Shown: in pieces, positions 216-11,374 of the stretch | How positions within the stretch are numbered: position 1 is the first letter of the stretch | How the letters are laid out: the number at the start of each line of letters is the position of its first letter | IMG/VR virus record: IMGVR_UViG_3300042402_003094 | Location: 1 to 20,615 of that record | Direction: 5' to 3' (one strand) | DNA from: a virus | Length of the DNA: 20,615 nucleotides | Translations under genes and position numbers: made by a program | Notes under the pieces: model-generated | The model's input: only the letters and a program-made list of their open reading frames with translations | The model's database searches: none | Told to the model about the DNA's origin: nothing

Positions 216-223
216 TATTTATT
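216..223 (-). promoter_or_regulatory. T4-type late promoter (AATAAATA)
   Basis: The minus strand reads AATAAATA, which fits the NATAAATA late-promoter core of T4-like phages recognised by gp55 with gp33 and the sliding clamp. It overlaps the TAA stop codon of the gp5-like gene (TAA at 221-219). The partial ORF starting at 193 follows about 23 bases downstream. The match is exact, but an 8-mer this AT-rich can occur by chance. Confidence 0.55.
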
Positions 224-2687
224 TGGATTTTACAGTTATCTTTCCAACGCAATCAACAACAGAAATAATCTTTGTTCCCGGTGGTGGATCTAGAGTCGGA
301 TCAACTTCTATAACTTTAAATACTGGAATTAATTCAGCATTGAAACCAGTATCACTTTCGACAAATATTGTCGGTCTTGAATCAAAACCAGATGCAGTTT
401 TTTCAACTCTTACTCCAACCACTGCTCCATTTTTTACAATCGGTTTAAGAACAGCACCCCTATCAGGTTCAACTACTATCGTATCATTTTCAGTATAGTT
501 AAATCCAGGATCCTTAACGTAAACTTCATCCAACTGTAAAATAACAGGATATATTGGTAAGTTTAATAATGTTTCTCTCTCGCTTGGCGTAAGTTGTGGT
601 ATACGACTTACTGCATTTTCTCTTTCTATCGGATTAAGATTTGGTAAATTTTCTAATCCTGGAATTTCTAATAAGGTTTCAACATCCCTTGGTGCTGGGG
701 GTGCTGTAATTGTAATTGGTCGATTTACTGGGAATTCTACTCCAGCAGGAATAGTTAAATCATCAATTATTACTGGAGATGGAACTTTAACAAAATCTCC
801 AGGATTTAATTCGATAGTGGTTCCTGGATTTACTGGAGGGAAATAAGTTCCATCTGCACCTTTTTTATAAGATTGATCTCTTTTTTTCCATACTCTACCA
901 GATCCACCTTCAGATCCATCTGGAGATATTAAGTAATTGGCACCAGATTCAACAATAACGATATTTTCAATACTCTTAATTGGTTCTCCCGCACTATTTG
1001 TAGAACTAGTCTTACTCATAATAGGAACAGCTGCCGCACCACCACCAGTTCCACAAGAATCGTTAATAGAAACAATTGGATCTGCCGTAAATCCACCTCC
1101 CCCATTAAGGAGATCGACAGCAAGAACTTCACCAGTTGCTCCAACCACAACATTTCCTGAAGCACCACTACCACCAGAACCAAAAATACTCAATGTAGGA
1201 GCACCACACCCAATAGGACCAATGCCACAACCACTTGCAAGAGATGTGAGTGCATCTCCTGCGCCACCAACTAAACCACCAATATCAAGATTATTTGCAT
1301 TAAATGCTCCAGCAGCATCAGATGCTGCTTGTGCTGCGGATTGTCCAATTGCTTGTGCTTGATTAAAAACAGACTCAATACTAACTGGACCGCCACGATT
1401 ATCTCCAGGACCACTCCAAGTGCTCCACTGATCTAATGTTGGGCAAGATAATTCCTCTTCACAACTAAAAAGACCAAAAATCTTTTTAATAATCGAAAGA
1501 ATTTGTCCAGCTAAATTTGCAGCTGCCCCAACTGTTTGTAATATTGCATTGATTGGTTGCAGAATAGAATTTATTAATCCAGAAATAAATCCGGCAACTC
1601 TCCCTACAATTTCACCAGCAACACCTTCAGCCAAACATACTGGAGCATTGATTGCTTTATTAACTAAGTTTTTTAATTGATTTCCAACTAATGCTAATAA
1701 TCCTTGAATGATTTTATTAATAGCACAAGAAAGAAGGTCTAGGGTTTTATTTTGTGCTTCTTTTACTGCGGGTCTTAAATTTGGAAAGAAAAGGAAATAT
1801 GTATCTTTTACGATATTGTTAACTTTTTCTATAACCGATTTTCTAACTGCTTCTACAATATTTTTAATTTTTGAAGTTACAAATGTAATCGCATCAGTAA
1901 CGGCATTTTCAATTCTTTTTTGTAGTTTATCAATACGACCAGTTAGTTGTGTACTAAAATCTGCACCGAGTTTTGTTAAGTTTTCGACAGTCTTAATCAA
2001 TTTTTCAATATCAGTGGAGATTCCCTTTATGTCATTTCTACCACATCTGGTAGTTTTTGACATCGGATACTGCATATCGCCATCCATTTTGGCCTGAGTA
2101 TCTGCTATTGATCCCAGACCTGATGTTAAACCTTGAGGATTTTCACTAACACCAGTGAATTGATTTCTTGTTTGCCCTGGTTGTTTTACTTGAACTGCTG
2201 AGGTTTTCTCATTAGTATTTTTAATGGTTGTTACTGATACTTTCTGGTTTTTAGTATATCCACTAAAAGGAAGAAATCCAACTTCTGGAATTTTCTTTTC
2301 AAGAGCAGTTTGTTGATTATATCCCAATACGCCCATAATAACTGGTTGCTGAGCATCTTCACCATCAATAAAGAATCCGAACACAAAACTTCCTTGACGA
2401 AGTTGTGCTGATGTTGATGCTCCAGCAGATCCAGCTCCTGCAGTCACTGGATACATTACAGTTGCCCAAGGTAATTCATCATCGCTCAAATCTTTAAGAT
2501 TGGCGGTGTGATACCCCATTATTCTGACTTTATATCTTTCACCGAATCCTGGAATTTCTCCAGTATTATCAACTCTATATCCAAGAATATTATCTTGCCA
2601 CTTAGTTTGGTCTACTACTTGACCAATCCACCAAACAAAACCATCTCTTCCTACAAAGTGTTTTTGGAATAACTGTTCTTCAATCAT
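219..2687 (-). CDS. 5: gp5-like baseplate hub / tail spike protein without a lysozyme domain
   Basis: The first ~120 residues look like the T4 gp5 N-terminal OB-fold that joins the gp27 hub: FVGRDGFVWWIGQVVD, then IPGFGERYKVRIMGYH, then a segment ending in a GxFVFGFFIDGEDAQQPVIMGVLG strand pattern. The rest differs from T4 gp5. There is no recognisable T4-lysozyme domain and no octad triple-beta-helix repeat. Instead residues ~220-410 are long amphipathic or hydrophobic helices. After a Gly/Ser-rich linker, the C-terminal ~300 residues are beta-rich, with GxxYTxxPxVxI-type repeats and a Pro-rich stretch. At 822 residues it exceeds T4 gp5 (575). It overlaps the preceding CP12-like gene by 8 bases, suggesting translational coupling. 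The name rests on the OB-fold and on neighbouring gp27; a cell-wall-cutting role is not supported by what I see. Confidence 0.8.
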   Translation of the reverse strand: MIEEQLFQKHFVGRDGFVWWIGQVVDQTKWQDNILGYRVDNTGEIPGFGERYKVRIMGYHTANLKDLSDDELPWATVMYPVTAGAGSAGASTSAQLRQGSFVFGFFIDGEDAQQPVIMGVLGYNQQTALEKKIPEVGFLPFSGYTKNQKVSVTTIKNTNEKTSAVQVKQPGQTRNQFTGVSENPQGLTSGLGSIADTQAKMDGDMQYPMSKTTRCGRNDIKGISTDIEKLIKTVENLTKLGADFSTQLTGRIDKLQKRIENAVTDAITFVTSKIKNIVEAVRKSVIEKVNNIVKDTYFLFFPNLRPAVKEAQNKTLDLLSCAINKIIQGLLALVGNQLKNLVNKAINAPVCLAEGVAGEIVGRVAGFISGLINSILQPINAILQTVGAAANLAGQILSIIKKIFGLFSCEEELSCPTLDQWSTWSGPGDNRGGPVSIESVFNQAQAIGQSAAQAASDAAGAFNANNLDIGGLVGGAGDALTSLASGCGIGPIGCGAPTLSIFGSGGSGASGNVVVGATGEVLAVDLLNGGGGFTADPIVSINDSCGTGGGAAAVPIMSKTSSTNSAGEPIKSIENIVIVESGANYLISPDGSEGGSGRVWKKRDQSYKKGADGTYFPPVNPGTTIELNPGDFVKVPSPVIIDDLTIPAGVEFPVNRPITITAPPAPRDVETLLEIPGLENLPNLNPIERENAVSRIPQLTPSERETLLNLPIYPVILQLDEVYVKDPGFNYTENDTIVVEPDRGAVLKPIVKNGAVVGVRVEKTASGFDSRPTIFVESDTGFNAELIPVFKVIEVDPTLDPPPGTKIISVVDCVGKITVKSK

Positions 2688-2892
2688 CGTAGATTCTACA
2701 CTCTAATGCGTTCGGGTTGTCATTACAATAAAGTTCAAGGGGGGATGGATCATGATTATCATCTGGATGAGATGCTTGATATCTCTCCAATGATTCTAGT
2801 TCTTCTTCAGCATGTCTTCTTGATTGCGAAGATGCCATTGGATCTTCAATTATTCTCTTATCATGATCAATGTGCTTTTGGATGTTTTCCAT
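2680..2892 (-). CDS. cp12: CP12-like protein (Calvin cycle inhibitor family)
   Basis: This 70-residue acidic protein ends in SPLELYCNDNPNALECRIYDD. That is very close to the C-terminal glyceraldehyde-3-phosphate dehydrogenase-binding tail of CP12 (two cysteines with eight residues between them, then an ECRxYD(D/N) end). CP12 clamps GAPDH and phosphoribulokinase and turns off the Calvin cycle in cyanobacteria; cyanophages carry cp12 as an auxiliary metabolic gene. The N-terminal cysteine pair is absent, and the core AWDxVEELQ motif is replaced by a helical EEELESLERYQASH segment. If functional it may bind GAPDH through the C-terminal loop without full redox control. The gene is wedged in a virion operon: its ATG abuts the stop of the gp27-like gene, and its end overlaps the gp5 start. 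An unrelated small structural protein with a convergent tail is possible but less likely. Confidence 0.75.
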   Translation of the reverse strand: MENIQKHIDHDKRIIEDPMASSQSRRHAEEELESLERYQASHPDDNHDPSPLELYCNDNPNALECRIYDD

Positions 2893-4182
2893 TTAACTTA
2901 CCTTACCTGAAAATGAATCTCTTACGAGAGTAAGACTTGTAAAAGTGTCTTTTGGAGTAATTCTATGACATAAACTAGCAATCATATACTTTCCTTTAGT
3001 TTGCATATTTGGTTTTTTATTTTCAATTTTTGCAAGATCTGGGAAATCACACTCAATCATATCCCCCGCATGAAGACTGAAATCTCCTGGAATCATAATA
3101 TGAGTCTTAATGCTATATAGCTGATTATATCTCATAATTGATTGAACCATCGTTGTTGGTGCATCAAAATTAGGATCTGTTGGTTTTGCTTTCCAATTTT
3201 TTAACTGCTCTTTTGCATCTTTTCCGGATGGTAGTGTTCCTAAATCTAATACATGATTCATAAATCGTGTTGGAATTTGCCTAAATTCCTTATCGACGAA
3301 CAGAATATTATCAGCAGCAAGTTCAATTTTTGATTTTTGATCTTTTTCTAGTGAATAATTTCTCACTTGATAATCCATTGCATAAAAATCAAAGAAAATA
3401 CTACGATTATTATACATTCCCAATGACATATTTTGTTGTAAATCTATATTTCTATCAATTTTAACATTGATAATTTTTCCATCATATCCTTCTGGTGTTT
3501 TTGTGGAATTTGTATAGATATATTTTTTCTTTGGTTCTTGTTTTAAAAGAACATCAATTGATTTAAACTTAAATGCTTCACTTGTTTCATACATGAAGTA
3601 ACCAGCTGCTCCGCCGATTCCTTTTTCCGGAACTGCCTTTGATGCTAACCAAGTGCAGACATATAATGGTTTTCTATCATTTCCTATAAAATTATAATTA
3701 ACACCCGTCTTATCAATATCTAATTTCTTTTTAACTTGCAATCCTTTTGGATCGGTAAGTATTTTCCTAACTGATGCTGAAATATCTCTTTCAAATCTAG
3801 TAACAACTCTCGATTGTTCATTAGCAATAAATTCTTTAGTGCAAAAGTCTAACATATAAACATCATTTGAAGTTCCTGGTGATGAACTATTAACGCGATT
3901 GACATATAATTCTAAACTAAGTGTATTTGGTTTAGATTGATTATCCTCGATAACCAATTCTACAAACTCACCACCACGAATTGGAAGACCATCCAACAAT
4001 CCTATCATTTCCTTCTGGTTTGGTTCTAAACCACCAGATTCAGCAATAATAGCAGTCGCTGAAATTGTATTTGAAAGCACATTTTCATAATATTTAATCT
4101 CAGGTGAAACCTGACTAATATCTTTTGACTTAACTTCAAACTTTTTTATATTGCCCGATAAGGCGGCTTCATTACTTGCCAT
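2893..4182 (-). CDS. 27: gp27-like baseplate hub protein
   Basis: This 429-residue protein has the pattern of a tail hub subunit (T4 gp27 / late control D fold). The N-terminal beta-domain contains GLLDGLPIRGGEFVELVIED, followed by a YVNRVNSSSP...YMLDFCTKEF segment. There is a central domain, and a C-terminal beta-domain with IPGDFSLHAGDMIECDFPDL, a GD-type turn typical of hub proteins. T4 gp27 has 391 residues, so the size fits. Its position next to the gp5-like gene matches the gp27-gp5 hub complex, where gp27 forms the torus gripping the gp5 OB-fold. The start ATG overlaps the stop of the 1252-residue gene (TAATG). The CP12-like ATG directly follows its stop. Assignment rests on fold-like patterns and context, not on strong residue identity. 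Confidence 0.7.
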   Translation of the reverse strand: MASNEAALSGNIKKFEVKSKDISQVSPEIKYYENVLSNTISATAIIAESGGLEPNQKEMIGLLDGLPIRGGEFVELVIEDNQSKPNTLSLELYVNRVNSSSPGTSNDVYMLDFCTKEFIANEQSRVVTRFERDISASVRKILTDPKGLQVKKKLDIDKTGVNYNFIGNDRKPLYVCTWLASKAVPEKGIGGAAGYFMYETSEAFKFKSIDVLLKQEPKKKYIYTNSTKTPEGYDGKIINVKIDRNIDLQQNMSLGMYNNRSIFFDFYAMDYQVRNYSLEKDQKSKIELAADNILFVDKEFRQIPTRFMNHVLDLGTLPSGKDAKEQLKNWKAKPTDPNFDAPTTMVQSIMRYNQLYSIKTHIMIPGDFSLHAGDMIECDFPDLAKIENKKPNMQTKGKYMIASLCHRITPKDTFTSLTLVRDSFSGKVS

Positions 4183-7100
4183 TAGATTTTGTACATTGAA
4201 GATGAGATTAATTGTCTGGAGACCATTCCATAACTATTTACCATACCATCAACAAAAGATGGTGTATATCCACTACCATTCTTTCTTATTGGTTGCATGG
4301 ATTGTCCACCAGGACTTTGGATAAGCATAATCATTCCATTTGATTTATCGTAAGATGCTGTTTGACTTAAGTTGGGTATTGACGATTTAATTGCAGGATC
4401 CCCAAGAACTTTGTAATTCAATGCAAAATCAGATATTTGTGCTGCTGGTGGAGCACTTGGTGCTCCAGGAGCACCTGGAGCAGATCCAGAACCTGGCGCT
4501 GATAAATCTGTTCCAGATGGTGCTAAACCAGCACCTTTAAATTCAAAGTGTCCTCCGTGGCTTCCTGGATAATCATTAGCAACCCAACCATAATTTCTAC
4601 CATTCTTTCTAATCCAAGAATTAGAACCACCATGAATATCCATTGCAATTCCAGACATATGGAGTGATCCACTCGCTCCCCCAACTGCTCTATTTTTTTC
4701 TGGACTTCTCTTACTGCTTGAAACATCTGATGCTTTAACTTTTCCACCAGAATCTTTCATCATTTTATAGAAAGCTTCAGCAGCACCCTTACTAAAGACT
4801 ACAGGTCTTCCTTGCTCATCTTTGGCACCTTGAATGGTATATCCAGGTCCAGTATCCCAAATACCTTTTGTGGAAATAATTCCACTTCCACCACCTCTAC
4901 CACCTTTAGCTGCTGCAGGATCCCCAAGAACTTTATAGTTTGCTGCGAAATCTGATATTTGAACTCCTTCAGATGGTGCAGATGGGGCCCCTGGAGATCC
5001 CGAAGATCCTGGACCTGCAATTGATGGATCTGGTTGTATAGATCCACCGAAAGGAGATTCCTTATTATATTTTGATAAAGGATTGAATCTAGAAAGAACT
5101 GCTGATTTTGGCATTCCATTATCTCTTGGATTCGTTGCTGCTTCCCAATGCAGGTGAGGTCCACTAGAAAGTCCAGTGCTCCCCAGTGGACCCAAAATAG
5201 TTCCTTTCTTAATTTTTTGACCACGCTTAACATACGCGGGTTTATCCATGTGCGCATAAAAATGCCCAATTCCCGTATTATCAATCCAATTGACCCAATT
5301 ACCATAATTACCTTGATTTCCAGTTGCTTCAACAACACCATCGGTAAATGCTTGTAGTGGTTCTCCTCTTGTTCCCGAAATATCAACACCCATATGCATT
5401 CCAGGAGACAATGCAAAATTTCGCATTCCCATATCTGATGTGACTTGATGATTTCCACCCATTGCTAAGAATGGAACTTTGTGGCGTTTTATTCCATTTC
5501 CACCACCTTTACCACCATTTTTACTAGGATTTGATGCAATATCTGGAGGAACATTTCCACCGGATTTAACTTTAGCAAGGGCTGTTTTAATTTTTTCTGG
5601 GGTCATAGAACTTCTTTGACCTGGATAATAAAACTTCCCTTGAGCGTTTGGTAATGATGCAAATTCCTGCGACAACCCCTGCATAAACCGATCATCACTC
5701 ATTTCACCTTTCAACCATCTTCTACCACCTCTGTTACCTTCTATATTAACCTTAGTAATAATTAGATCTTGGTTTTTTGGACTAAAAAGATCTTTATCAG
5801 GATTTAACCCAGCCGCTTTTGCTCTACTAATCAGATATTGTGGTAATTGTTGATATTTTCCAACAGCACCAGTTGCTCTTCTGGCAACTTCGGCAATCGT
5901 CATTTTAGTAGCACCTTTTAATGTAGTGCTAGGATACATTGCTTCATAATTTCCACCAGATTCTTTGCCGGCGATCAAATCAAGAAGTGGCCCCCATTGA
6001 CCTTCAGATATACCACTGCTAGGTGCAGAAGTGCCATCATCAGCACCACCTGGAGGTCCACCGCCAGGTTGCGCTTCTTCTTTCTTTTCCTGTAATAATT
6101 TAAATTGATTTTCTTGAGATTTTACATCAACAAATATTTTTTTCTTTGCCCAATCTGTTAAATTCTTACTAAATTGTCCGATTATTCTTTTATTAAATCC
6201 TGGAACGCTAAATTCATCATTTTTCAAAGCAATACCAATTGAGGAACCAATAGATTCTGCAATTGCATCTGTTCTTGGTTTAGATACTTTTTCGCCTAAA
6301 CTAATATCCAAACCAAGTTTCATTGCCTCACCGATGAATGGTATAGCACCATAAGTTGAAGAAAGATTTGCAAATCTCTTTGCACTCTCTTCATCTTTTA
6401 AAATGGTTCCTTTTGCTTTTTTCAGTGTTTGTGGAGATATTGCAGATGAACCAGTTGTTTTTCTTTGAATACTTGTAGATCTTGATAAAGTTCTTTTTGA
6501 TCCTCCACCTCTTATATTAATTTGACCACCATATGCTCTTCTCTCAATAGGATTTTCCTTATCGGCTTCAGCGACTCTTCCTGTTAAATTTTCATATATT
6601 TTTTTACCAGCCCATTCTCCAATTCCAGCACCAACAAATCCACCAACAGCAGCACCTACAACTGGAATTGGAATCAATCCCTGTCCTATAGCGCCACCAA
6701 TACCAGCACCTAGAGTTGCTCCTATTGCTCCAACTATGGCACGATCTAGTTTCTCACCTAAAGCAAGATCAATACCAATTCCAATCAGAGCACCAACAAC
6801 AGGAACTCTCTTAAAGATTTTAGAAAATGATTTAAATCTTTTAACTATTCTAGCAGTAGAATTTAATGCACTACCTGCTGCACCTGCTGCTTTACCTGCT
6901 AGTCTAGCAGCACCCTTAGCAGCACCTTTTACCCCTTGCTCTAATGCTTCACCACCTACTCTTTGGACTAAAGATTTTAGGGGACCTTTAACCAGATTAA
7001 AGATTACTCCACCCGCTTTTTTGAATAGATTTCCTGCGATTCTTCCTGCTTTTAATAATAACTTACCAATCAGTTTGGCAGGAGGACCAATAATTTTTGA

Positions 7101-7940
7101 AGTTAATTTTGCAATAAACTTAACTTGTTTCGGAAATACCGTCGTTAATGTAATAATTCCAAGTTTTAATGCATTCCAAGTGTTAGTAAGTCCTTTTCCA
7201 ATGTCTTTAAACATCTGAAGAATCATTGGACCATTCTTCAGAAGAATATTAAGCAGACTTCCTATTAGAACATTTAATAGGAATCTTTTGATCATATCAA
7301 AAAGACCAACCTTCGGAGCAGTTATTCCTAACTTTTTCTTCTTCTTAGTATCTTTCTTTTCTTCTAGATTTTTTTCTTGTTCTTCTGCTTTCTTCTTTCT
7401 ACCTTCTATAAAGTTAAGGCGACTTTCCTCTTTTTGGTTGAGGAGTTTTTGTGTTGATATCTGTTTAACTTTTATAAAATCAACTTTTATTTGCTCAAGT
7501 TCTTGTAAAATTTCTCCGAGAACACCATCAGATTTAACTAATGCTCCACTTGGTTTCTTATCTTCAGTCTTAACCAAAGCACCCGATGAACTTTTAACTA
7601 TTGCTGAAGATCTTCTTAAAACTAATGCTCCCCCCTTTCCACCACCTTTTTTATTTTGTGGTATAAATTTTTTTGTTGTTATTTTTTTATCCTTATTTTT
7701 ATTTCCAATTAACCCAAATGCAGCAGACCTTACTACAGATGTTGCAAGACCTCTAACAGCTGCACCACCAACACCTCTTAATGCTCCACCAATACCACCT
7801 CTAACAGCCGCACCACCAACACCTCTAGCAACAGTTCCTCTTACTAATGCACCTCCTCCACCCCTAACAGCAGCACCAGCTGCGCCTCTAGCAGCTACTC
7901 CCGCAGCTGCTCTTAAAACTAAAGGAGCTAGAAATAACAT
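4182..7940 (-). CDS. Large virion protein with three cell-wall hydrolase domains; tape-measure candidate
   Basis: Order along 1252 residues: a Gly/Arg-rich repeat tract (~15-75); a charged Lys/Glu coiled region (~140-205); a hydrophobic FLLNVLIGSLLNILLKN segment shared with the 833-residue neighbour; several glycine-zipper hydrophobic stretches (~235-460), as in tape measure proteins; a lambda R / GH104-like lysozyme-fold domain (~645-780, with GKESGG, GKYQQLP, SPKNQDL and FASLPNAQGKF); an M23 LytM-type zinc endopeptidase (~828-935, HMGVD, GHFYAH, HLHWE); then an M15-like D,D-peptidase domain (~1020-1135, SLHMSGIAMDI and HGGHFEF). Key residues of all three look intact. The motif ISDFA(A/L)NYKVLGDP flanks the M15-like domain at both ends. 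The gene lies between the 833-residue gene and gp27, where T4 has genes 28-29. It probably acts in the tail lumen or hub, cutting peptidoglycan at DNA injection (inference). Confidence 0.8.
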   Translation of the reverse strand: MLFLAPLVLRAAAGVAARGAAGAAVRGGGGALVRGTVARGVGGAAVRGGIGGALRGVGGAAVRGLATSVVRSAAFGLIGNKNKDKKITTKKFIPQNKKGGGKGGALVLRRSSAIVKSSSGALVKTEDKKPSGALVKSDGVLGEILQELEQIKVDFIKVKQISTQKLLNQKEESRLNFIEGRKKKAEEQEKNLEEKKDTKKKKKLGITAPKVGLFDMIKRFLLNVLIGSLLNILLKNGPMILQMFKDIGKGLTNTWNALKLGIITLTTVFPKQVKFIAKLTSKIIGPPAKLIGKLLLKAGRIAGNLFKKAGGVIFNLVKGPLKSLVQRVGGEALEQGVKGAAKGAARLAGKAAGAAGSALNSTARIVKRFKSFSKIFKRVPVVGALIGIGIDLALGEKLDRAIVGAIGATLGAGIGGAIGQGLIPIPVVGAAVGGFVGAGIGEWAGKKIYENLTGRVAEADKENPIERRAYGGQINIRGGGSKRTLSRSTSIQRKTTGSSAISPQTLKKAKGTILKDEESAKRFANLSSTYGAIPFIGEAMKLGLDISLGEKVSKPRTDAIAESIGSSIGIALKNDEFSVPGFNKRIIGQFSKNLTDWAKKKIFVDVKSQENQFKLLQEKKEEAQPGGGPPGGADDGTSAPSSGISEGQWGPLLDLIAGKESGGNYEAMYPSTTLKGATKMTIAEVARRATGAVGKYQQLPQYLISRAKAAGLNPDKDLFSPKNQDLIITKVNIEGNRGGRRWLKGEMSDDRFMQGLSQEFASLPNAQGKFYYPGQRSSMTPEKIKTALAKVKSGGNVPPDIASNPSKNGGKGGGNGIKRHKVPFLAMGGNHQVTSDMGMRNFALSPGMHMGVDISGTRGEPLQAFTDGVVEATGNQGNYGNWVNWIDNTGIGHFYAHMDKPAYVKRGQKIKKGTILGPLGSTGLSSGPHLHWEAATNPRDNGMPKSAVLSRFNPLSKYNKESPFGGSIQPDPSIAGPGSSGSPGAPSAPSEGVQISDFAANYKVLGDPAAAKGGRGGGSGIISTKGIWDTGPGYTIQGAKDEQGRPVVFSKGAAEAFYKMMKDSGGKVKASDVSSSKRSPEKNRAVGGASGSLHMSGIAMDIHGGSNSWIRKNGRNYGWVANDYPGSHGGHFEFKGAGLAPSGTDLSAPGSGSAPGAPGAPSAPPAAQISDFALNYKVLGDPAIKSSIPNLSQTASYDKSNGMIMLIQSPGGQSMQPIRKNGSGYTPSFVDGMVNSYGMVSRQLISSSMYKI
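4395..4436 (-). repeat. ISDFAxNYKVLGDP motif, copy 3 (C-terminal)
   Basis: Codons here encode ISDFALNYKVLGDP near residue 1170 of the 1252-residue protein. It is one of three near-identical copies in the two large adjacent virion genes. It follows a Gly/Ala/Pro/Ser-rich linker and precedes the C-terminal ~70 residues. Nucleotide sequence differs from the other copies mainly at silent positions. Confidence 0.9.
4917..4958 (-). repeat. ISDFAxNYKVLGDP motif, copy 2
   Basis: Codons encode ISDFAANYKVLGDP near residue 1000 of the 1252-residue protein, between the M23 and M15-like domains. It is preceded by a flexible Pro/Ser/Gly linker. The 14 residues are identical to the copy in the 833-residue protein. 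Confidence 0.9.
7750..7826 (-). repeat. Two 29-bp direct repeats, 48 bp apart
   Basis: The stretches at 7750-7778 and 7798-7826 differ at one base (t/c). They encode the doubled RGVGGAAVRG unit in the Gly/Arg/Ala-rich N-terminus of the 1252-residue protein. Further diverged copies extend on both sides. This looks like internal tandem duplication in a low-complexity coding tract. Confidence 0.8.
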
Positions 7941-10446: not shown

Positions 10447-10608
10447 CTACTGCTGTGCTTGTTTTGCCCTTTCTTCTTCTAGATGCTGTTGAAGTAGAGT
10501 CACATAAATGTCCCTTTCCCAAGGAAGCATATTTTCAATCTCTGTTAATGAATATTTATGATACTGCATCAAGGCAAAATTAAGCTTATAGTAGTTCTCA
10601 AGGTCCAT
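10447..10608 (-). CDS. Small tail-assembly ORF after gp26 (gp51 / lambda T-like position), likely made as a -1 frameshift fusion
   Basis: The ORF runs from ATG at 10608 to TAG at 10447-10449 and encodes 53 residues, helical and charged, with YHKYSLTEIENMLPWERDIY. That pattern resembles the second part of tail assembly chaperones, in which a small Leu/Trp-rich peptide follows the main chaperone ORF. Its frame is open upstream of the ATG through CGG ATA GGA CTG GTC CAT back to a T TTT TTC heptamer at the end of gp26. A -1 slip there would give a ~297-residue gp26 fusion adding RIGLVH plus these 53 residues. Independent initiation at the ATG is possible, but no good ribosome binding site is visible and the ATG lies within a perfect palindrome. 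In T4 gene 51 follows gene 26, but T4 gp51 has 249 residues, so homology is not claimed. Confidence 0.75.
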   Translation of the reverse strand: MDLENYYKLNFALMQYHKYSLTEIENMLPWERDIYVTLLQQHLEEERAKQAQQ

Positions 10609-10619: not shown

Positions 10620-11339
10620 CTATCCGAAAAAACTGGATAATCCTTCAAGAACTACGGTGCTTTCAACTTCAGTCTTTGGATTTGTCAGTTTAACTTCGTG
10701 AGAAAGTTTTGGCATTGTTTCAAAGAACTTTTCAATTTGTTTGAACTGCTGAGAATTCATCTGATCCAAGAACTCACTAAGTTCTTTCTTTGTCACATCA
10801 GCAGTATCCCAAACTTCTTCTTCATTATAAATTTTATCAATACAAGATGCAATCAAATCAAAAGATTGATCCATACTATTGTTTGAACTAAAGTCAAAGT
10901 TTGATTTAATAAACTGATCCAATGAAGGATACTTCATTTCCATCATTAAATTGTTATCAATTTTAATCTTTGTTGTGTGCTCTTCATTCTTCTTGACTTT
11001 AATATCATCAATTAAAATCTTAACTTCAACGGGAGTTTCTCCATCATCAGGTGCAATCAAATTAACTTCAATTTCTTCCCCAACAGATTTTCCGCGAATG
11101 TTAAGGAACAAATATTCAATATCAAAGGTTGGTAAATTTTCAACCTTGATACTTTTAGATTGAATGCAATTCTTAATTACAGTCTTAATAGCAGTTGTAA
11201 TTTGCTTCATATCCTCACTTTCCAAAGCAAGAACAAGAAGTTTTTCTTCTCTAACTAAAAACGGTCTATATTTGATCGTTTCTCCAGTTGATGGCAATTC
11301 CAACTCATATGTTGGTGTAGAAATCTTTGGTAAAGGCAT
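10620..11339 (-). CDS. 26: gp26-like baseplate hub / tail assembly protein
   Basis: The 239-residue product matches the pattern of the T4 baseplate hub gp26 family: a start like KISTPTYELELPSTGETIKY, then YRPFLVREEKLLVLALES, LPTFDIEYLFLNIRGKSVGE and a helical C-terminal half. T4 gp26 has 208 residues and is needed for hub assembly. The last codons are AGT TTT TTC GGA TAG, carrying a T TTT TTC slippery heptamer immediately before the stop. The protein may therefore be made in two forms, gp26 and a frameshifted extension, like the lambda G/GT chaperones. A CATAAATA late promoter lies 27 bases upstream of its ATG, just after the gp54 stop. The tape-measure-like genes follow. Confidence 0.8.
   Translation of the reverse strand: MPLPKISTPTYELELPSTGETIKYRPFLVREEKLLVLALESEDMKQITTAIKTVIKNCIQSKSIKVENLPTFDIEYLFLNIRGKSVGEEIEVNLIAPDDGETPVEVKILIDDIKVKKNEEHTTKIKIDNNLMMEMKYPSLDQFIKSNFDFSSNNSMDQSFDLIASCIDKIYNEEEVWDTADVTKKELSEFLDQMNSQQFKQIEKFFETMPKLSHEVKLTNPKTEVESTVVLEGLSSFFG
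10626..10632 (-). promoter_or_regulatory. Candidate -1 ribosomal frameshift slippery heptamer (T TTT TTC)
   Basis: On the minus strand gp26 is read AGT TTT TTC GGA TAG, so the heptamer is correctly phased as X XXY YYZ. A one-base backward slip avoids TAG and enters the frame of the 53-residue ORF with no stop in between. It is followed 10 bases later by a GGTCC/GGACC stem. Frameshifting at this place in tail genes is well known (lambda G/GT and many other tailed phages). Confidence 0.7.
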
Positions 11340-11366: not shown

Positions 11367-11374
11367 TATTTATG
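11367..11374 (-). promoter_or_regulatory. T4-type late promoter (CATAAATA) for gp26
   Basis: The minus strand reads CATAAATA in the 37-base gap between the gp54 stop and the gp26 ATG. The start codon is 27 bases downstream of the box, as expected for a late leader. It would drive gp26 and the large tail genes. Confidence 0.6.

Follow-up and report, generated by a model that had tools for sequence, protein, structure and literature searches.

Why should a gene for a carbon metabolism regulator lie between two genes for the tail of a phage? CP12 is a small cyanobacterial protein which switches carbon fixation off. We found a gene of this type in a stretch of 20,615 nucleotides (the window), which is a 20.6-kb IMG/VR fragment of a T4-like cyanophage. 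At the DNA level the window is best matched, within the phage collection, by cyanophages and marine viruses, none of which covers more than 10% of it. The original prediction left two possibilities: either a metabolic regulator is made late, together with the virion parts, or a CP12-derived tail serves as a structural or packaged peptide.

Identity of the reading frame and its neighbours

The reading frame encodes 70 amino acids, MENIQKHIDHDKRIIEDPMASSQSRRHAEEELESLERYQASHPDDNHDPSPLELYCNDNPNALECRIYDD. The protein matches the Pfam family CP12 (PF02672) over residues 2-69, corresponding to positions 3-70 of the 70 profile positions, with E = 5.4e-16. The score of 59.6 bits, as compared to a gathering cut-off of 22.7, answers the question whether the profile would place the protein outside the family: it lies inside. 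Apart from CP12 the Pfam search returned a sub-threshold match to Con-6 and no baseplate or virion family. Within PHROGs the protein matches phrog_627 and phrog_2603, both of unknown function. When the PDB was searched by sequence, CP12 chains ranked best, led by the GAPDH-bound 6gfo, and the alignment reaches the last residue. The AlphaFold model has a mean pLDDT of 90. A structure search with this model gave Z scores of at most 4.7, mostly to generic helical hairpins, and the full-length CP12 6gfo_E (Z = 4.4) is the sole CP12 among the matches listed.

The protein has only two cysteines, Cys56 (2727-2725) and Cys65 (2700-2698). Both are within the C-terminal tail, eight residues apart, and the acidic C-terminus ends with YDD. 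The near-perfect CP12 tail of the original prediction is thus borne out by the Pfam match, the C-x8-C spacing and the PDB alignment. The likeness is, however, not limited to the tail, since host CP12 can be aligned along the whole protein, with about 50-56% identity. That the C-terminal pattern is ancestral to a baseplate protein family is ruled out, because neither Pfam nor PHROGs gave a baseplate match and host CP12 aligns over the full length. Judged from its sequence the reading frame is a CP12, and a chance match is excluded.

The genes around cp12 form a baseplate operon on the minus strand (Table 1). The TAA of the gp27-like gene directly abuts the ATG of cp12, the end of which in turn overlaps the start of gp5. 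The predicted position between these two genes with their tight ends is therefore correct, and both gene labels hold. The profile of the gp27-like protein found zero matches among the PDB sequences, and its identity as gp27 rests on the AlphaFold model, which matches T4 gp27 (1k28_D; Foldseek E = 5e-16, TM = 0.69 on the target). Further upstream, a tail-operon protein of 1252 amino acids carries M23 and M15 peptidase domains on one chain.

Table 1. Features of the window around cp12, from the first gene of the operon downwards (all on the minus strand)
Feature	Positions	Strand	Remarks
ATAAATA, T4-type late promoter core	11367..11373	-	27 nt ahead of the gp26-like gene; candidate operon promoter, by position only
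gp26-like baseplate hub protein	10620..11339	-	first gene of the operon; T4_baseplate, E = 9e-75
gp51-like baseplate hub assembly catalyst	10447..10608	-	phrog_634, E = 1e-26
Protein of unknown function, 833 aa	7944..10445	-	same operon
Large protein with M23 and M15 peptidase domains	4182..7940	-	upstream, same operon
gp27-like baseplate hub protein, 429 aa	2893..4182	-	phrog_350 'tail protein', E = 2e-92
cp12, 70 aa	2680..2892	-	CP12-domain protein, picocyanobacterial/cyanophage type
GAPDH-binding-type C-terminal tail LELYCNDNPNALECRIYDD	2683..2739	-	residues 52-70 of CP12
Overlap of cp12 end with gp5 start, ATGATTGA	2680..2687	-	8 nt
gp5-like baseplate hub/spike protein, 822 aa	219..2687	-	Gp5_OB, E = 3e-6; phrog_1922 'baseplate hub subunit and tail lysozyme', E = 9e-122
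ATAAATA	216..222	-	overlaps the gp5 stop; the next transcript may start here

Host and phage forms of CP12

Classical CP12 (CP12-N/C; Thermosynechococcus and plants, structures 6gfo and 3qv1) resembles the window protein in its GAPDH-binding C-terminal tail, but it also has an N-terminal cysteine pair and an AWD_VEE core which are used for PRK. Both are absent from the window protein, where the aligned segment reads HAEEELESLE. This absence had been noted before and is correct; as an argument against a CP12 it fails, as none of the 62 distinct picocyanobacterial host CP12s examined from Cyanobium/Synechococcus genomes and bins has the N-terminal cysteines or AWD_VEE, and every one of the 62 has the C-terminal C-x8-C pair. 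The marine picoplanktonic group has been described as an exception without classical CP12, and cyanophage CP12s are also known to depart from the classical form (PMC3906501). Since the hosts share the absences, they do not argue for repurposing of the window protein, and we have discarded repurposing as their cause: they are a host trait. The host proteins align with the window protein over its residues 1-70 at 50-56% identity and share a tail ending with YDD or YED. The phage forms differ in being two residues shorter and in having a DPxxSxQxRRH segment. A picocyanobacterial CP12 also turned up in a contig labelled as a Bifidobacterium breve MAG (L202), which is probably a mislabelled bin.

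Among 136 distinct phage CP12s, 134 have the C-x8-C tail at the protein end. The two exceptions are a fusion contig (L056), in which the tail continues into gp5, and L188, in which the second cysteine is lost. In the latter (L188:6001-6213) the tail reads ALESRIYDS; this natural variant could not form the C-terminal disulphide. We then consider the 92 sequences from genes which are locked between the gp27-like gene and gp5. Here Cys56, Glu64 and Cys65 show practically no variation, and the mean column conservation is 0.76 for residues 46-70 as compared to 0.64 for residues 1-45. Against its relatives the cp12 gene of the window has a dN/dS of 0.06-0.18 and is thus under purifying selection. 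A divergent group of about 89 amino acids sits at the same junction. Its N-terminal half is quite different, but the tail remains CDNHPDSLECRVYDD or very close to it, and the group still scores as CP12 (E = 8e-9). In ten of these longer variants the N-terminal half is rich in histidine and aspartate. The conserved tail and the 89-residue group would fit better with selection for GAPDH binding than with selection for PRK binding.

It could be argued that the gene is a degenerate passenger which has lost its function and is kept only by its end overlaps with the gp27-like gene and gp5. The packing itself is all that speaks for this. The gp5 overlap limits only the last few codons of cp12, while the low dN/dS extends across the whole gene, nearly all distinct phage proteins retain both tail cysteines, and copies at other genome sites keep a dedicated promoter-like element (see below). 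We consider such a loss of function highly improbable. From the conservation of the tail we infer that the phage protein binds GAPDH. The oxidised C-terminal hairpin Cys56-x8-Cys65 together with the acidic YDD end would insert into the active-site region of the host GAPDH, as in the solved CP12-GAPDH complexes. The Calvin cycle could be slowed in this way, and carbon and reducing power would be diverted to the pentose phosphate pathway and to nucleotide synthesis.

Occupation of the gp27-gp5 junction

We compared the gene with other cyanophage CP12s and their positions, as had been proposed. Relatives of the window protein are present in 372 public phage records, with 80% or more of the query covered in 362 of them, and several are annotated as CP12 or carbon metabolic regulator. 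The isolates DSL-LC03, DSL-LC02, S-T4 and Sf-CH8 share the tight gp27-like/cp12/gp5 layout. The proteins of DSL-LC03, S-T4 and DSL-LC02 are of the same family and length and have the same tail, their genes abut or overlap with the neighbours as in the window, and they are 57-70% identical to the window protein, with DSL-LC03 at 70%. In phage Bellamy an unnamed gene of 75 codons fills the same tight slot. S-CREM1, Syn9 and S-SZBM1 also have cp12 at the junction but differ from the window by genes inserted on the gp5 side, so that CpeT, 2OG oxygenase or tRNA genes stand beside cp12. In S-TIM5, S-SRM01 and P-HM2 the gene is found at other genome sites.

In the IMG/VR survey cp12 is locked between the gp27-like gene and gp5 in 133 of the 184 loci with a CP12 match. 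Searches that start from CP12 favour the relatives of the query, and a set anchored on gp27 gives a fairer estimate: with junctions cut by a contig end left out, 42 of 52 readable junctions hold a cp12 reading frame and 10 are empty. At nine of the ten empty junctions the flanking genes overlap by 4 nt, as ATGA. The isolates P-SSM2 and S-B05 have the same empty junction, and P-TIM68 has a short gap without a gene. The location had been regarded as unusual, which these counts contradict. Variable positions for talC and cp12, near gp5 among them, have also been reported (Sullivan et al. 2010, PMC3037559). Both the gene and its position near gp5 are thus already known, and the position is common. 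A tree of these 70-residue proteins has few resolved forks, and we only use two of its features: a branch with support 100/99 sets the host genes apart on one side, and the locked labels cluster (12 changes as compared to 37.8 after shuffling), a clustering which near-copies inflate.

Could the protein be part of the virion? As a CP12-derived structural or packaged peptide it would be a component of the hub, or it would be carried in the virion and block GAPDH at once on infection. The tight co-translation with the hub genes and the report of non-structural regulatory proteins in cyanophage virions (PMC10665884) could be taken as support, as could a contig in which CP12 is in frame with a shortened gp5. 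The latter reading frame (L056:606-3392; IMGVR_UViG_3300008113_004374) encodes 921 amino acids, and its gp5 part is without the first ~43 residues. When we searched for the fusion junction, only this contig had the pattern; a recurrent fusion is thus ruled out and the single instance is likely an assembly error. Against a virion role, cp12 stands apart from all baseplate genes in many phages, and the empty junctions demonstrate that the hub does not need cp12 there. In addition, the residues which are kept are those of host CP12. The virion proteome of S-SZBM1 contains the gp27-like protein (_65) and not CP12 (_64), which is a weak point against packaging, since gp5 (_61) is also missing and the list is therefore too shallow to exclude CP12. 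Of the 14 virion proteins of S-CREM1, four are described as structural, nine have no known function and one lacks matches, which leaves no place for the annotated CP12. In the virion table of S-CREM2, which was looked up by protein name, CP12 is not named. In our view the suggested structural or packaged peptide is very unlikely. Also very improbable is a variant in which phages of the locked layout produce CP12 late, along with the hub proteins, and pack part of it into the virion, so that the host GAPDH would be blocked at the next infection before phage genes are read.

We suggest instead that cp12 in the window is very probably a host-derived auxiliary metabolic gene. It would encode a CP12 of the picocyanobacterial class, which has the C-terminal cysteine pair only, act as a Calvin cycle inhibitor by means of its GAPDH-binding tail, and travel as a passenger of the hub operon. 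The gene would have been inserted cleanly between the co-translated gp27-like gene and gp5, breaking neither of them. Because of this clean insertion cp12 would be transcribed as a passenger with the baseplate-hub operon, probably late.

Promoter motifs and the time of expression

In cyanomyoviruses NATAAATA is the core of late promoters (PMC2984593). The two sites of Table 1 frame the operon, and a further minus-strand ATAAATA is found inside gp51 (10559-10553). As ATAAATA is no more frequent in the whole window than in shuffled sequences (six instances, against 8.6), position is the sole argument for these sites. On the minus strand of the window there is no ATAAATA near cp12, and just upstream of the gene promoter matches occur at chance level only.

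The relocated genes are different. ATAAATA is found at most 45 nt before the ATG of 28 of 33 relocated cp12 genes, as compared to 2 of 92 locked cp12 genes and 15 of 424 other reading frames of the same loci, where some of the 33 loci are too short for certain placement and related loci cannot be counted as independent. The spacing is nearly always 20-24 nt from the ATG. In these relocated copies the motif is often followed by TTATCAxCACGATACAAAA; in examples such as the L188 copy the element lies about 28 nt before the ATG. The motif and this shared downstream sequence hint at a mobile unit of promoter and gene. Our reading is that a locked cp12 may borrow the transcription of the hub operon and a relocated cp12 may bring its own late-type promoter.

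An ATAAATA-type motif alone is, however, no proof of late timing. In P-HM2, CATAAATA stands 24 nt ahead of the cp12 ATG, yet all auxiliary metabolic genes of this phage, cp12 included, are in the middle expression cluster (PMC5082946). Middle timing may arise from overlapping early and late promoters, and the middle promoters of cyanophages are poorly defined (PMC2984593). It is therefore possible that cp12 in the window is expressed in the middle phase with other auxiliary metabolic genes, from a promoter within the gp27-like gene that has escaped recognition. This would concern the timing only, as the CP12 function is the same. We think it rather unlikely: nothing like a promoter is conspicuous directly before cp12, locked genes hardly ever have the motif, and the P-HM2 copy lies beside talC in the psbA/talC region, outside the hub operon. 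As to timing alone, we lean towards late expression of cp12 in the layout of the window, as a prediction from the gene order. That cp12 is made together with virion genes, as originally proposed, is the best reading of the layout, from which the lateness itself is inferred.

The CP12 of cyanophages is a textbook example of how viruses control carbon fixation, and according to the model it acts in the middle phase, together with nucleotide synthesis. What our finding leaves of use is the question at which time during infection a locked cp12 is expressed. To judge from the locked layout and the late-type core on the relocated copies, cp12 may in many phages follow the late programme of the virion genes.
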